A stretch of 40,856 nucleotides of DNA from Candidatus Berkelbacteria bacterium (GTDB taxonomy: Bacteria; Patescibacteriota; UBA1384; DTJR01), in the NCBI GenBank assembly GCA_026397175.1, contig JAPLVK010000020.1:1-40856 (forward strand). The letters are read 5' to 3'. The position numbers and the translations under genes were made by a program. Positions 4,861-9,862 of this stretch are shown here, one piece after another. The notes beneath the pieces were generated by a model. That model did no database searches, was not told where the DNA came from, and worked only from the letters and a program-made list of their open reading frames with translations. How positions within the stretch are numbered: the first letter of the stretch is position 1; each line of letters starts with the position of its first letter.

Positions 4861-5922
4861 TTACGAGGCGAGACGATAGTGCAAAATCTCGCCTTGCATG
4901 AACGGCCTAACGACGATTGGGAAAGTTGGGACGCAAACCTCCCAATCCTCCTTGACCAGACGCACCGGTTTGCTTGGTATATTGGCAAGAGTGTGAAACT
5001 TGATGGCGTTACCCCGAACGAATCGTTCAAAGCGTTCGCGCCACTTCTTTCCCCCATACTCTTGGAAAAGCCAATATGTCAGCGGAATATCCACCTCATC
5101 CGGCGTAAAAATGCCGGACGGCGCTTCATCCCAACCCTTAAGCTTCGCTTCTTCCGGATGCGCCGCACAGTCGCGCCCCTTCATCGTCCCTGCCTCCGCT
5201 TCCATCATTGCCTCAAAAACCGCATCGCGGTTTTTCGATATCTGAAGGGGTGGCTGAACCTTGAGGAATGGATCTCTTTGACCATCCGAACCAAAGGTGT
5301 CGCAGATTGTCTTAAGTGCGCCATGCAGAGTTAGCGTCATTCCGACACTAAACCCCTGCTTCCGAAGCCGCTTGACCATCGCGATGCCGGCTTCGGTCGA
5401 AAAATGCTCCAGAACAAAGCGTTGATCCTTGGGATATCGAGTAATCAGCTTCTCGACAATTCCCAACATCGCCTCCTCCCCATCAAGCGGGTTGGGGGTT
5501 TTTCCCTGGCAGTGGATCAAAGTGGCTTTATCGCACTTACCGGCCATTTTGATGACTTTCAGGAAGTTTTGGTCGCTGAAATCCTCGATACCGTGCTTGC
5601 TGTTGGTCGTTACGCCGAGAGGAAGAATCTTGAGAGCCCAGAAATGGTCCCGGGCTAATCTGATTTCCTTTGAATCGGTGTCAGGCGTGACCTGAATGGT
5701 CATAAGATACCGAGGACCACTCTTACTTTTTGTTGCTACTAGTTGCTTCTCGTACAAAGACGCCATATCACGACTGGTGATTGGCTCTTTCAGATTCGGC
5801 ATTGGTACCGTATAGAGACAAAGTCCCATATGCGGCGCAACCGACTCGAACATCTCCCCCTCGCGCCAGTGGTCGTGCATTTGGCAAAAACGCGGGACCT
5901 CTATGTGACCTTTGTGAGGCAT
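4861..5922 (-). CDS. pyrC: Dihydroorotase (PyrC type)
   Basis: The 353-residue product carries all catalytic elements of class II dihydroorotase: HDHWREG (His16, His18 metal ligands, Arg20), MPN (Asn43, substrate), carboxylated-lysine position Lys98 in ALKILP, TTNSKHG (Thr105-Thr106 of the mobile loop in E. coli PyrC), His137, His173 in LEHFST, and Asp251 with His255 in RDCAAH. It should interconvert carbamoyl-aspartate and dihydroorotate in UMP synthesis. ATG 5922 is preferred over 5976 because GGAAAGGA stands just before it and it leaves a 22-base gap to the upstream dihydroorotate dehydrogenase-like gene. The pair makes successive pathway steps. Its base composition is richer in GC than the flanking genes. 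Confidence 0.9.
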   Translation of the reverse strand: MPHKGHIEVPRFCQMHDHWREGEMFESVAPHMGLCLYTVPMPNLKEPITSRDMASLYEKQLVATKSKSGPRYLMTIQVTPDTDSKEIRLARDHFWALKILPLGVTTNSKHGIEDFSDQNFLKVIKMAGKCDKATLIHCQGKTPNPLDGEEAMLGIVEKLITRYPKDQRFVLEHFSTEAGIAMVKRLRKQGFSVGMTLTLHGALKTICDTFGSDGQRDPFLKVQPPLQISKNRDAVFEAMMEAEAGTMKGRDCAAHPEEAKLKGWDEAPSGIFTPDEVDIPLTYWLFQEYGGKKWRERFERFVRGNAIKFHTLANIPSKPVRLVKEDWEVCVPTFPIVVRPFMQGEILHYRLAS

Positions 5923-5944
5923 ATCTGTCCTTTCCGGCAAGTCC

Positions 5945-6928
5945 TTAACGGACCTCCCACTCGATTTTGTCGGCACGAGAAATGACTTGGTTTAGCCACC
6001 ATCTAAACGGATAGAGAGTCGGCAAAATCCCGATTGAGACAAGGTCGGCTCCGGCGTTGCGAAACCGATCTATGTCCCATGGAGCCAGAATCCCGTTTCC
6101 GCCCATCAGGATGACTTTTTTGTCCGCCTCTCTGATCTGCCTGACTATGCGCAGCGCATATTTGCGGCAGCGGTTTCCGGACCAACCTCCTTCGGTAAAT
6201 CCTCGCTTTTTGAGGATTGATTCCTTGCTCCACCAATAGCTCAACCACACCTCGTCGTTTTCGGCCATAAAGGCGTGAGGGATGGCATTGCACGGCGCAA
6301 CTAGATCAAAGTATCCCGCAAGTGTCAGTACAAACTCAAGTTCGGTGACCGGAGAGCAGTTGAAGCCGATTGGACCGCCGATTCGGCGCAAAATTCGCGC
6401 CTCCTCGATGATCTCTTGGGTGAAAGTCGAGCGATGCTTCACATTCGGACAGCCACCATTCAACATCACCCCGGGCTTGATCCGAAGAGTCGGAAAGTAC
6501 TGCTGGCAAGCGCTAGCAAACTTCTCGGTCTGCGCGATTCTACCCTCGGGCGTGTCGGCGTTAGCCAAATACGAGATCCAGAAATTGTTCTCTTCGCCTC
6601 GCCAAATGCCGCCATCGAAATACTTCTCGTAAGACCAGCAAGACAGTCCGACTGCGTTTTGGGCGTGAGCCGTGATAGGATCAGCCACGATACAGCGCGG
6701 TAAAAACTCGATCGGCGTTACACCGTCTGCCCGAAGCGGCATGTTGCCTTTGCTGCCATCCGTGATCGTCTTCATCTGCTTCGTTACCCGATCGTCGTTG
6801 TACCAGCCGCGGACACCTCGCCACCACCAGTGTTTATGGTAGGGATAACCGCCACCGTCAATGTTGGCTGCTCCCGATGCGCAGAAAATCCTGCGATAGG
6901 GAACTCCACCGATCGCGATGTCTCCCAT
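5945..6928 (-). CDS. pyrD: Dihydroorotate dehydrogenase-like flavoprotein (divergent PyrD)
   Basis: A 327-residue TIM-barrel protein. Family marks are VTKQMKT (48-54), GNMPLR (61-66) and NAVGL (91-95), the substrate segment NGGCPN (Asn157, Cys160, Asn162), GGWSGNRCRKYALR (247-260) and the phosphate-binding ends MGGNGI (275-280) and SIGI (298-301). Cys160 sits where class 1 enzymes have their catalytic base. The family pattern VKLSP, whose Lys contacts FMN and orotate, reads FNCSP here (Asn190), a notable change. It would oxidise dihydroorotate to orotate, the step after the neighbouring dihydroorotase, but because of Asn190 a different dihydropyrimidine substrate is possible. A strong AAAGGAGGA site (about 6935-6943) fixes the start; its first bases can pair with TCCT just downstream. 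Confidence 0.8.
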   Translation of the reverse strand: MGDIAIGGVPYRRIFCASGAANIDGGGYPYHKHWWWRGVRGWYNDDRVTKQMKTITDGSKGNMPLRADGVTPIEFLPRCIVADPITAHAQNAVGLSCWSYEKYFDGGIWRGEENNFWISYLANADTPEGRIAQTEKFASACQQYFPTLRIKPGVMLNGGCPNVKHRSTFTQEIIEEARILRRIGGPIGFNCSPVTELEFVLTLAGYFDLVAPCNAIPHAFMAENDEVWLSYWWSKESILKKRGFTEGGWSGNRCRKYALRIVRQIREADKKVILMGGNGILAPWDIDRFRNAGADLVSIGILPTLYPFRWWLNQVISRADKIEWEVR

Positions 6929-6999
6929 CAGGAGTCCTCCTTTATATTCATCTTGTTGTCAACGATCTTTGCCACCTCCAAAGTAGCAGAAGTTTTAAA

Positions 7000-7035
7000 A
7001 AAGAAAAAGGGCCGGCTCGTTTGACGAGCCGGCCC
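7000..7035 (-). terminator. Intrinsic terminator after the plsY fusion/gpsA unit
   Basis: Perfect 12-bp GC-rich stem GGGCCGGCTCGT/ACGAGCCGGCCC (7009-7020 and 7024-7035, loop TTG). Read on the minus strand it is followed by TTTTTCTTT, a textbook terminator 23 bases beyond the stop of the gpsA-like gene. It separates the two minus-strand units of the GC-rich block. Confidence 0.9.
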
Positions 7036-7058
7036 ATATTAGGCAAATACAGTTTGAT

Positions 7059-8114
7059 TTACTGCTGATACCATGCATCGCGTCGGGCGCGAATTACGGT
7101 GATTTCTTCATGGACTGTGGTCTCACCGGCAATAACCCGCGCTGCCGAAGCAAAGAATGGGGGCAGTATCTCCTCCTTCCAACGCTTCGCCAGATCAATG
7201 ATACTCCCGACCCCCTCGACAACACCGTCGCAGATCTCTGGTTCACGCCTTTGGCCCTGCGCATACCCGTATCGCCAGTTCCGGCTTTTGCTCTCGCCAA
7301 TCATACCGGAACAAAGCAGCTGGTCTGCTCTTAGAACACGAGTGATTCTACTTCTCCCCGGGATAGAATCAGCTTCCCTTGGCGACAGAAACAGGTCATA
7401 ACAGCCCTTGTCAAGTACACATGCGACTACTTGGCATTCGTATTCGATGCTCGAGGCCGCAGCCGCCAGTTCGGTTGGGGAAAAGTCCCCGGCTGGAACC
7501 TGCTCTGCCTCCTTAACGCGCTTGGCATATCCAAGCAGCATGCCCATTTCAACCGAAGCGATTGTGCGCGCAACATTGACTGCACAAATCGCATCAGGTC
7601 TGTCACAGGGAGCTGTCCAGAACTTCAACGGCCGAACGGTCTGCATCACTGTTTCGCGAACTGACTCCGACTGTGAGGCAACGATCATCATCGCCTCTGC
7701 CCCGTTAAAAACATCAAGAGCGAACGCCGCGCCGGTAAACGAACCGGCGTTTAGACCTCTATCTTGAGCAAGAGAAACCGGCGATTTTCCGTTAATAAGC
7801 CCCTTCTGGACCAGTAAAACCGGTGCCGTTACCTCTTGCTTGGAGACCTGGTCCAGTACATCTTCTACTCCGCTGGAATCAGTCGTGACAAAAATCAGAC
7901 CAAACTCCTTCAGGTTGTCCGGAAAATCGCCAACCATACAGCGAAGACAAAGTGGGGTTGGACGAGCAGGAAAATCACGATTAGCCCCCATTGGATAAGC
8001 AAAAGTCATCGCACTTCGCCCCCAGATCATCGTTTCGATCTCGGCTCGCGCAAAGCGATAAGCCAGCGCATAGCCGAAATGACCCGCCCCCAGAAAAGCG
8101 ACTTTGAATTTCAT
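7059..8114 (-). CDS. gpsA: GpsA-like glycerol-3-phosphate dehydrogenase, divergent
   Basis: The N-terminus has the Rossmann signature FLGAGHFGYALA (GAGHFG 9-14), then QKGL with Lys104, the TGAAFALDV segment that parallels the family's GPxFAxEV, and the substrate/nucleotide segment SKSRNWRYGYAQGQ (275-288) corresponding to SPLSRNxRxG. Such enzymes make sn-glycerol 3-phosphate from dihydroxyacetone phosphate, the acceptor for PlsY, which fits the gene just upstream: its stop overlaps this start (ATGA). Oddity: the second catalytic Lys of the family (ALKN motif, Lys192 region in E. coli) seems absent; the matching segment reads AVNVARTIAS. It may therefore be slow, altered in substrate or non-catalytic. 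The call rests on fold signatures and context. Confidence 0.78.
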   Translation of the reverse strand: MKFKVAFLGAGHFGYALAYRFARAEIETMIWGRSAMTFAYPMGANRDFPARPTPLCLRCMVGDFPDNLKEFGLIFVTTDSSGVEDVLDQVSKQEVTAPVLLVQKGLINGKSPVSLAQDRGLNAGSFTGAAFALDVFNGAEAMMIVASQSESVRETVMQTVRPLKFWTAPCDRPDAICAVNVARTIASVEMGMLLGYAKRVKEAEQVPAGDFSPTELAAAASSIEYECQVVACVLDKGCYDLFLSPREADSIPGRSRITRVLRADQLLCSGMIGESKSRNWRYGYAQGQRREPEICDGVVEGVGSIIDLAKRWKEEILPPFFASAARVIAGETTVHEEITVIRARRDAWYQQ

Positions 8115-9862
8115 CTTACCTGTTTCCTTCCTTCTCTTATTCTGTCTGCAAATCTGCAGCGCCGGGCAGCTTCTTCCCAGCTCAACGGCTGTTCTTGGAG
8201 GCGCAATCCGGCGATCTCAAAGCCGTTTCGATCGAAGGCCTCAAGCGCCAGCTCAATTTCTTCAAGCTTGGGAGCTGTTACCCAATCAAAATCCCAGCCC
8301 TCGAGCAAGAAGAGTACTAGCTCGCTAAGACAGGGAAAGTGAATCCCTTCCGGCAAGCCCAGACCTTCTTTGCCTTCCGCATCGAAGTGGGCCGTCGCAC
8401 CATCATTTGGCAAAAGCCGCATGATATCTGCGAGCTCCTTGGAGATGTTGCGCGGTCTCGCCATATCGGTGATGACCGCCCCATCTATTAGCCATGATGG
8501 GTCAATCGTAAGTTCGCGATCCGAACTTGTGGCAGCGATAATGACATGTGATTGTCGGACCGCTTCCTCGAGCGAGACCTCTTGAACATGGAACCCATCT
8601 GGTGAATTTAGAGCATTGTAGCGGATGTTTAGGTCGGTAACCAGTTTCGTAAGCGAGTTAGGCCTCCTGCCCACAACAAACAGGTATTCGATGCCGTTTT
8701 TGAGCAAGATCTCGCAACAGGCGCGACCAACTGATCCGCCTGCACCAATTACGGTGGCAGTTATCTGATCGGGCTTTCCCCAGCCCATTTTCTCGGCGGC
8801 CACAAGCGAAGATATCGCGGCCAACCCGCCCGTCAACCGGTTTCCATTCGTCACCGGAATTGCGACGGACTCTGCGAGGGTTAAACCCTTGTCGTAAACG
8901 ATGGCCGTGAAGGCGCCGAGGCCGAGCGCTTGCGCCCCTCGCTTCTCCAGATACCGCGCCAACTTGACCAGATGCTTAATCGCCTTCTTCGGGTTCTCTT
9001 GCATCTGCTTGGGCGTCCACGGGAATCCCCAGATTATCACCCTCGCCTTCTTGCCATTTGCTCCCGTCACTACTTCCTCGCCCAACTTGAGCTTGGAAAG
9101 CGGCAGTAGATGAAACAGCGACGAGGTGAAAAACCCCAGCGGGATATGCTTGGCAAAGCCGTACTTGCGCGCAAGGTGTTCGCGGATCTTGACTGGATCG
9201 TTTGAAGCCGCATCGGTCATAAAACATCCCGTCGGGATGTTGTCAGTCGCAAGCGGCTCATACTTGATTCGGTGGATATTTGCGCGATGCGCAAAAATCA
9301 CATGGCAGGCAACCAGCACGAAGAAAATCTTGAAAACCGGGTCGTGCAGGAAGATGGCGCAAAGAACCGCCATCAAGATGGCCGTGCGAATTGAGGCGAT
9401 TGCTGTCGCTTCGGGCTTCTCCTTCTTGACCATCTTTCGCTTGGTTTTGAACCAGAACAAATAGCAGGCAACTGCGATCAGCGGAGAAACCGTTAAGATA
9501 ATCCCCACTGTCGTGGCCGCACTCTTACCGCCACGAAGGCCGATATAGGGCGAATAGCTATGCCCGAGCAAAATGCCCGCTCCAAATAACGCGATCGGCA
9601 CGGAATTGCTGTGGGGAAGATTCTGCAGGAGAAAAATCGGTAGCGCTCCTTTGAAAAGAGCATCCACCGCCTGCACGATGTACCCCCACTTTTTGCCGAG
9701 CACGCGTTCGACATTGGTGGCCCCGATTGAGCCGGAGCCAACCTCGAGCAAGTCAATGCCCGTTTTCGCCCGAACGATCATCAGGCCCCAGGGGAATCCT
9801 CCCCAGAAATACCCGAGCAACACCAACGAAATCAGCTGCCAGACATAATCCGAGTAAAACAT
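8111..9862 (-). CDS. PlsY-type acyltransferase fused to an acyl-ACP reductase (AAR)-like domain
   Basis: Residues 1-200 are PlsY-like: several membrane helices, GSGSIGATN (42-50; family GSGNIGATN) and GHSYSPYIGLRGGKSAAT (100-117; family GGKG, here GGKS). PlsY acylates glycerol 3-phosphate from acyl-phosphate. Residues about 235-555 resemble cyanobacterial long-chain acyl-ACP reductase: ALGLGAFTAIVYD (312-324) against ALGGFTSIIFE, the NADPH loop VIGAGGSVG (371-379), and PCLSELVLFLLEGW (510-523) against ACFAEAMLLEFEGW, placing Cys511 on the acyl-accepting Cys294 of the Synechococcus enzyme. The product of that family is a fatty aldehyde. At 583 residues it equals the two proteins joined. Upstream is GAAAGGGTGAG before the ATG; downstream overlaps gpsA. 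I know of no such fusion described; the joint role (for example ether-lipid or aldehyde formation from the same acyl pool) is inference. Confidence 0.88.
   Translation of the reverse strand: MFYSDYVWQLISLVLLGYFWGGFPWGLMIVRAKTGIDLLEVGSGSIGATNVERVLGKKWGYIVQAVDALFKGALPIFLLQNLPHSNSVPIALFGAGILLGHSYSPYIGLRGGKSAATTVGIILTVSPLIAVACYLFWFKTKRKMVKKEKPEATAIASIRTAILMAVLCAIFLHDPVFKIFFVLVACHVIFAHRANIHRIKYEPLATDNIPTGCFMTDAASNDPVKIREHLARKYGFAKHIPLGFFTSSLFHLLPLSKLKLGEEVVTGANGKKARVIIWGFPWTPKQMQENPKKAIKHLVKLARYLEKRGAQALGLGAFTAIVYDKGLTLAESVAIPVTNGNRLTGGLAAISSLVAAEKMGWGKPDQITATVIGAGGSVGRACCEILLKNGIEYLFVVGRRPNSLTKLVTDLNIRYNALNSPDGFHVQEVSLEEAVRQSHVIIAATSSDRELTIDPSWLIDGAVITDMARPRNISKELADIMRLLPNDGATAHFDAEGKEGLGLPEGIHFPCLSELVLFLLEGWDFDWVTAPKLEEIELALEAFDRNGFEIAGLRLQEQPLSWEEAARRCRFADRIREGRKQVR

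Follow-up and report, generated by a model that had tools for sequence, protein, structure and literature searches.

PlsY (YgiH) is the acyl-phosphate:glycerol-3-phosphate acyltransferase: its acyl donor is acyl-phosphate, and six residues of the Aquifex enzyme (PDB 5xj5-5xj9) are defined as holding glycerol-3-phosphate, namely Ser35, Arg45, Lys104 and Asn180 together with Ser142 and His177 (PMC5700162). Fusions of PlsY to DegV (FakB) are known in Bellilinea and Thermanaerothrix and have been read as a means of channelling acyl-phosphate, which is unstable (PMC5700162). Cyanobacterial acyl-ACP reductase (AAR, PDB 6jzq), PigE (PDB 4ppm) and TamH are thioester reductases (PMC7089970, PMC8341465, PMC9594044). 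AAR forms an acyl-Cys thioester at Cys294 from acyl-CoA as well as from acyl-ACP (PMC7089970), the cofactor of TamH is NADH (PMC9594044), and the known members act with ADO or with an aminotransferase, including as AAR-aminotransferase fusions (PMC8341465, PMC9594044). In CPR genomes, PlsY without PlsX leaves the source of acyl-phosphate open, and lysolipids are enriched in these organisms (Probst et al., 2020; PMC7242380).

Here, we analysed a stretch of 40,856 bases (the window), which is a whole contig of a 1.0-Mb Patescibacteria assembly (93% completeness, 0.7% contamination). It carries the only copy in this assembly of a gene in which about 12 residues separate a complete PlsY from an AAR/PigE-type domain behind it. 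The gene lies on the minus strand, which an earlier sequence-only reading had not given, and runs from an ATG at 9862 to a TGA at 8111-8113 in the single uninterrupted frame of 583 codons which that reading described. A GpsA-like gene adjoins it on the same strand. The features are as follows:

8111..9862, minus strand: PlsY-AAR fusion protein, 583 aa; recurs at loci L021, L022 and L023, and partly at L032
9263..9862, minus strand: PlsY domain, residues 1-200 (acyl-phosphate:glycerol-3-phosphate acyltransferase), from PF02660, PDB 5xj5 and AF2/Foldseek
8147..9226, minus strand: AAR/PigE-type putative thioester reductase domain, about residues 213-572, from phmmer, profile and NCBIfam
8726..8746, minus strand: dinucleotide-binding loop GAGGSVG, residues 373-379, aligned with AAR GATGDIG 162-168
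8330..8332, minus strand: codon of Cys511, aligned with the acyl-accepting AAR Cys294 and PigE Cys296
7059..8114, minus strand: GpsA-like dehydrogenase, 351 aa, from PF01210 and a profile match to GpsA 3k96 (1.5e-22)
7563..7568, minus strand: codons R183-T184 of the GpsA-like protein, aligned with the GpsA catalytic Lys-Asn

PlsY-AAR is a new domain architecture. No report of it was found in the searchable literature, which omits most subscription journals; to that extent the initial remark that no such fusion is known holds, next to the related PlsY-DegV and AAR-aminotransferase proteins. Like the PlsY-DegV fusions, it places a soluble acyl-handling domain on the C terminus of PlsY, but DegV binds fatty acid or acyl-phosphate whereas AAR belongs to the oxidoreductases and has a catalytic Cys.

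By family, clamp residues and predicted fold, the first ~200 residues are a PlsY domain, as the sequence-only reading had assigned them, with putative use of acyl-phosphate. Residues 16-199 match PF02660 (2.1e-33, 116.2 bits against a cut-off of 24.1) and residues 11-199 match the PlsY structure 5xj5 at 2.3e-23, while the TIGR00023 equivalog gives the domain 119.9 bits, just under its cut-off of 137.2. All six glycerol-3-phosphate contacts are kept (S43, R53, K113, S157, H192 and N195). In an AlphaFold2 model made with 38 PlsY relatives, pLDDT is mostly above 90 over residues 1-200, and Foldseek matches this predicted part to 5xj8 (E 4.6e-11, TMt 0.84) and to PlsY crystal structures generally at TMt 0.84-0.87. 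The whole PlsY domain, its six contacts and its predicted fold are shared with YgiH; what the window protein adds is a C-terminal AAR domain of ~360 residues. Extended PlsY proteins of another kind were seen elsewhere in Patescibacteria (L034:8231-9475, L036:5246-6436, L014, L016 and L155), with a second membrane half of ~200 residues that has no Pfam name and that by eye is like dolichol/phytol kinase-type membrane proteins.

The C-terminal half is an AAR/PigE-type domain by sequence, with a catalytic Cys and a putative thioester reductase activity. In phmmer searches, residues 263-555 match AAR 6jzq (45-341) at 1.4e-12 and residues 265-522 match PigE 4ppm at 1.9e-12; a 12-member profile of the domain reaches 4ppm at 3.4e-52 and 6jzq at 1.7e-41, and the NCBIfam PigE model gives 95.6 bits. 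The identity of the domain had thus been recognised correctly by the sequence-only reading, but homology begins at about residue 213 rather than 235, and the dinucleotide loop that it reported at 371-379 is present as GAGGSVG at 373-379. Its alignment of Cys511 with AAR Cys294 is borne out, and the Cys is invariant at this position in 12 of 12 homologues (AAR chain numbering was verified against the published GATGDIG 162-168 and Y247). Sequence similarity across the whole domain, with its N-terminal, Rossmann and C-terminal parts, as well as the dinucleotide loop and the catalytic Cys, is shared with AAR, PigE and TamH. Unlike these, the window domain is fused to PlsY, and compared with AAR it partly lacks the arginines that bind the NADPH phosphate: for R189, R193 and R314, one is kept (R399), S403 stands at another and the place of R314 has no Arg. 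As two of the three are not kept, NADH may be the cofactor. The score is also far under the cut-off of TIGR04058, the equivalog of long-chain acyl-ACP reductase (38 bits, and 39.8 bits for the domain, against 449.7).

A shikimate dehydrogenase or generic Rossmann protein with a misplaced Cys, which the sequence-only reading had named as the finding that would overturn its assignment, is rejected on the sequence evidence: the corresponding Pfam match (30.8 bits) spans the Rossmann core only, while AAR/PigE profiles score far better and cover the domain. A single-sequence AF2 model of the AAR half, made without relatives, has a pLDDT of 34; in the full-length model AAR 6jzq ranks high among the Foldseek matches to proteins other than PlsY (E 2e-3), in a low-confidence region. 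Altogether, the anatomy of the fusion, that is its domain identities and catalytic residues, is well supported at the level of sequence. AAR-like sequences also turned up in other settings. Free-standing homologues with the catalytic Cys occur in relatives (L024, L025, L026, L028, L029, L030 and L031), several of them in genomes without PlsY. Nine plasmid records (H1-H9; Thioclava, Haematobacter, Leisingera) hold class III aminotransferases with an unannotated AAR-like half, like PigE/TamH, and an AAR-like stretch with 28% identity over residues 280-522 lies in the phage record MT835709.1 (14553-15257), a faecal 'Bacteriophage sp.' that is possibly host DNA.

The same domain order, sought elsewhere as the sequence-only reading had advised, is found in 5 of 55 genomes of the class, complete in G000, G003, G018 and G040 and partly visible in G048, where it lies at a contig start with masked bases. 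These genomes span four families and five genera; 380 genomes sampled from the whole phylum yielded no further fusion. An assembly join, which the sequence-only reading had allowed for, is unlikely in view of this recurrence (three other Patescibacteria genomes complete and one partial) and of the uniform G+C of the two halves (0.53 and 0.55). Identity between the window copy and the other fused proteins is 24-29%, so that they are old or fast evolving. The fusion may or may not have a single origin: trees of the PlsY and of the AAR domain have long branches and give an AU p of 0.04 against a clade for each domain, while the GpsA-like partners group as one clade. Scans of genome contigs returned PlsY relatives only, and a scan of viral contigs gave no match. 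Across the class, free-standing AAR homologues are common and PlsY also occurs alone.

The block at 4861-9862 has a G+C of 0.52-0.55 compared with 0.41 for the window, and the fusion gene in L021-L023 is likewise richer in G+C than its surroundings, which suggests that the module was acquired by transfer. Behind the module, 4861-6928 (minus strand) holds a dihydroorotase-like gene (TIGR00856, 139.7 bits, cut-off 292.95) and a weak dihydroorotate-dehydrogenase-like gene; since this part shares the high G+C (0.52-0.54 against 0.41), the entire block of 5 kb may have come in as one piece. A link to pyrimidines through these PyrC/PyrD-like neighbours was considered and dropped, as the genes are not conserved at the other fusion loci.

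The paired GpsA-like gene, which the sequence-only reading had not reported, adjoins the fusion and points the same way in all five genomes; in the window its ATG shares bases with the fusion's TGA (ATGA). Among the 55 class genomes, a profile of this protein finds strong matches (E below 1e-116) in the five fusion genomes only and in none of the remaining 50, and other matches are at ~1e-4; under independence of the genomes, an assumption that does not hold, such a split would have a chance of ~3e-7. The protein shares with GpsA, the NAD(P)-dependent glycerol-3-phosphate dehydrogenase, the NAD loop, the KG lysine, the Asp, the Ser-Arg-Asn phosphate site and its place after plsY. It differs in that Arg-Thr replaces the catalytic Lys-Asn (K204-N205 of human GPD1) in all five module copies, where 31 of 31 ordinary GpsA proteins have Lys-Asn, in the deletion of an active-site Thr, and in forming a separate clade (support 100/100). 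The partner is a new GpsA subfamily. Because ordinary plsY-gpsA neighbourhoods are common, the module resembles such a neighbourhood with an added AAR domain. Variants of the plsY-gpsA theme were also seen: a natural PlsY-GpsA fusion of 540 aa in a MAG labelled Akkermansia (L080:5968-7587), and tandem plsY pairs followed by an ordinary gpsA in the Patescibacteria genomes G109 and G083 (L154/L159, L151/L158).

The genomic setting of the window protein also sets it apart from that of PlsY. Six families were searched genome-wide, each on its own, with control genomes positive as expected: PlsX, PlsC, GpsA, ACP, CDP-alcohol phosphotransferase and DegV. In the window's genome, no GpsA match other than the paired gene exceeds the family cut-off, and PlsX, PlsC, ACP, FakB/DegV and CDP-alcohol phosphotransferase gave no match in this 93%-complete assembly. 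The absence of PlsX, too, goes beyond the sequence-only reading. That PlsX was lost specifically with the fusion is unsupported, because PlsX is rare class-wide (8 of 55): it is present in one of the five fusion genomes (G018, which alone among them has PlsX and PlsC) and in 7 of the 50 others.

Our preferred reading, to which we give a probability of roughly 40%, is that the two genes form a module for making lysophosphatidate without ACP and usually without PlsX, PlsY being fed by the AAR domain from an acyl group loaded on Cys511. The AAR domain would take an acyl chain onto Cys511 from a CoA thioester or possibly, with the reaction running backwards, from a fatty aldehyde, and would pass it at close range to PlsY, perhaps by phosphorolysis to acyl-phosphate, thereby replacing or helping PlsX. 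The membrane PlsY domain would then acylate a glycerol phosphate to lysophosphatidate, and the GpsA-like protein would handle the phosphorylated C3 partner. We infer the use of acyl-CoA, the hand-over to PlsY, the formation of acyl-phosphate, the direction of the chemistry and the substrate of the GpsA-like protein. Acyl-CoA is proposed as the substrate because no ACP was found, which for the same reason makes the acyl-ACP of the sequence-only reading unlikely, and with PlsX, ACP and FakB all without a match the fused AAR domain would be the nearest candidate source of acyl-phosphate. This module is favoured by the ability of AAR to form acyl-Cys from acyl-CoA too (PMC7089970), by the channelling already proposed for PlsY-DegV fusions (PMC5700162), and by the pairing of fusion and GpsA-like gene in five of five genomes with no strong match in the other 50. 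Against it, a pure transacylase would have no need of the dinucleotide loop, which is kept; G018 carries PlsX and PlsC alongside the fusion; PlsX is lacking in 47 of 55 class genomes, so that its absence does not go with the fusion in particular; and free-standing AAR homologues occur in relatives that have no PlsY. The supply of glycerol-3-phosphate is uncertain as well, since the GpsA-like protein has lost the catalytic Lys of GpsA. To our knowledge, no AAR-family member makes acyl-phosphate, and the characterised ones make aldehydes.

The main rival, which was the view of the sequence-only reading and which we consider a serious possibility, takes this last point at face value: the AAR domain would use NAD(P)H to reduce acyl-CoA to fatty aldehyde, and the fusion would split one acyl pool between ester lipids, through PlsY, and aldehyde-derived lipids. 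Such a split would be compatible with the data. The kept Cys and dinucleotide loop agree with it, as does aldehyde being the known product of the thioester reductases AAR, PigE and TamH (PMC7089970, PMC8341465, PMC9594044). The known AAR fusions, which pair AAR with the enzyme that uses the aldehyde, also speak for it. On the other side, PlsY is not known to use aldehydes. The neighbours of the fusion at the five loci include no identified enzyme that forms ethers or uses aldehydes, so that the role in ether or plasmalogen lipids suggested by the sequence-only reading finds no support at the locus, no ether-forming enzyme having been identified in the window; and the loss of two of the three NADPH-phosphate arginines points to NADH as a possible cofactor.

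The domain could also run in reverse, with a scavenged fatty aldehyde oxidised to acyl-Cys by NAD(P)+ and released as acyl-phosphate, as in GAPDH, while the GpsA-like reductase recycles the cofactor; aldehyde and dihydroxyacetone phosphate would then give lysophosphatidate in a redox-neutral way. Such a scheme accounts jointly for the oxidoreductase domain, the acyl-phosphate user and the paired dehydrogenase, and is consistent with no PlsX, FakB or ACP being found, but we know of no precedent for phosphorolysis in the AAR family, the GpsA-like active site is altered and the fatty aldehyde it needs has no assigned source, and we consider it improbable. Quite improbable, in our view, is a mere tether between domains with separate substrates, the GpsA-like protein being a regulator or the maker of an unusual glycerol phosphate: AAR homologues and PlsY do each occur alone in the class and G018 also carries PlsX and PlsC, but fusion and neighbour are kept together in five divergent genomes.

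Returning to the lysophosphatidate-forming module, a bolder proposal is that the AAR domain is a Cys-based substitute for PlsX, making acyl-phosphate out of either acyl-CoA or a fatty aldehyde and channelling this to PlsY beside a re-tasked GpsA, which would let some ACP-less Patescibacteria make lysophosphatidate from scavenged acyl chains; we regard this as rather doubtful. A link between the lysophosphatidate product, the absence of any PlsC match and the enrichment of lysolipids in CPR (PMC7242380) is suggestive but weak.

The fusion bears on the origin of membrane lipids in Patescibacteria, as it joins an acyl-phosphate user to a domain whose relatives make an acyl-enzyme from acyl-CoA, in genomes where ACP, and in most of them PlsX, was not found. 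It adds PlsY to ADO and the aminotransferases as a partner of the AAR domain, in a set of two genes that is open to direct expression and assay, and it may help to explain how lipid precursors are made without the usual activating enzyme in very small and probably host-dependent bacteria.
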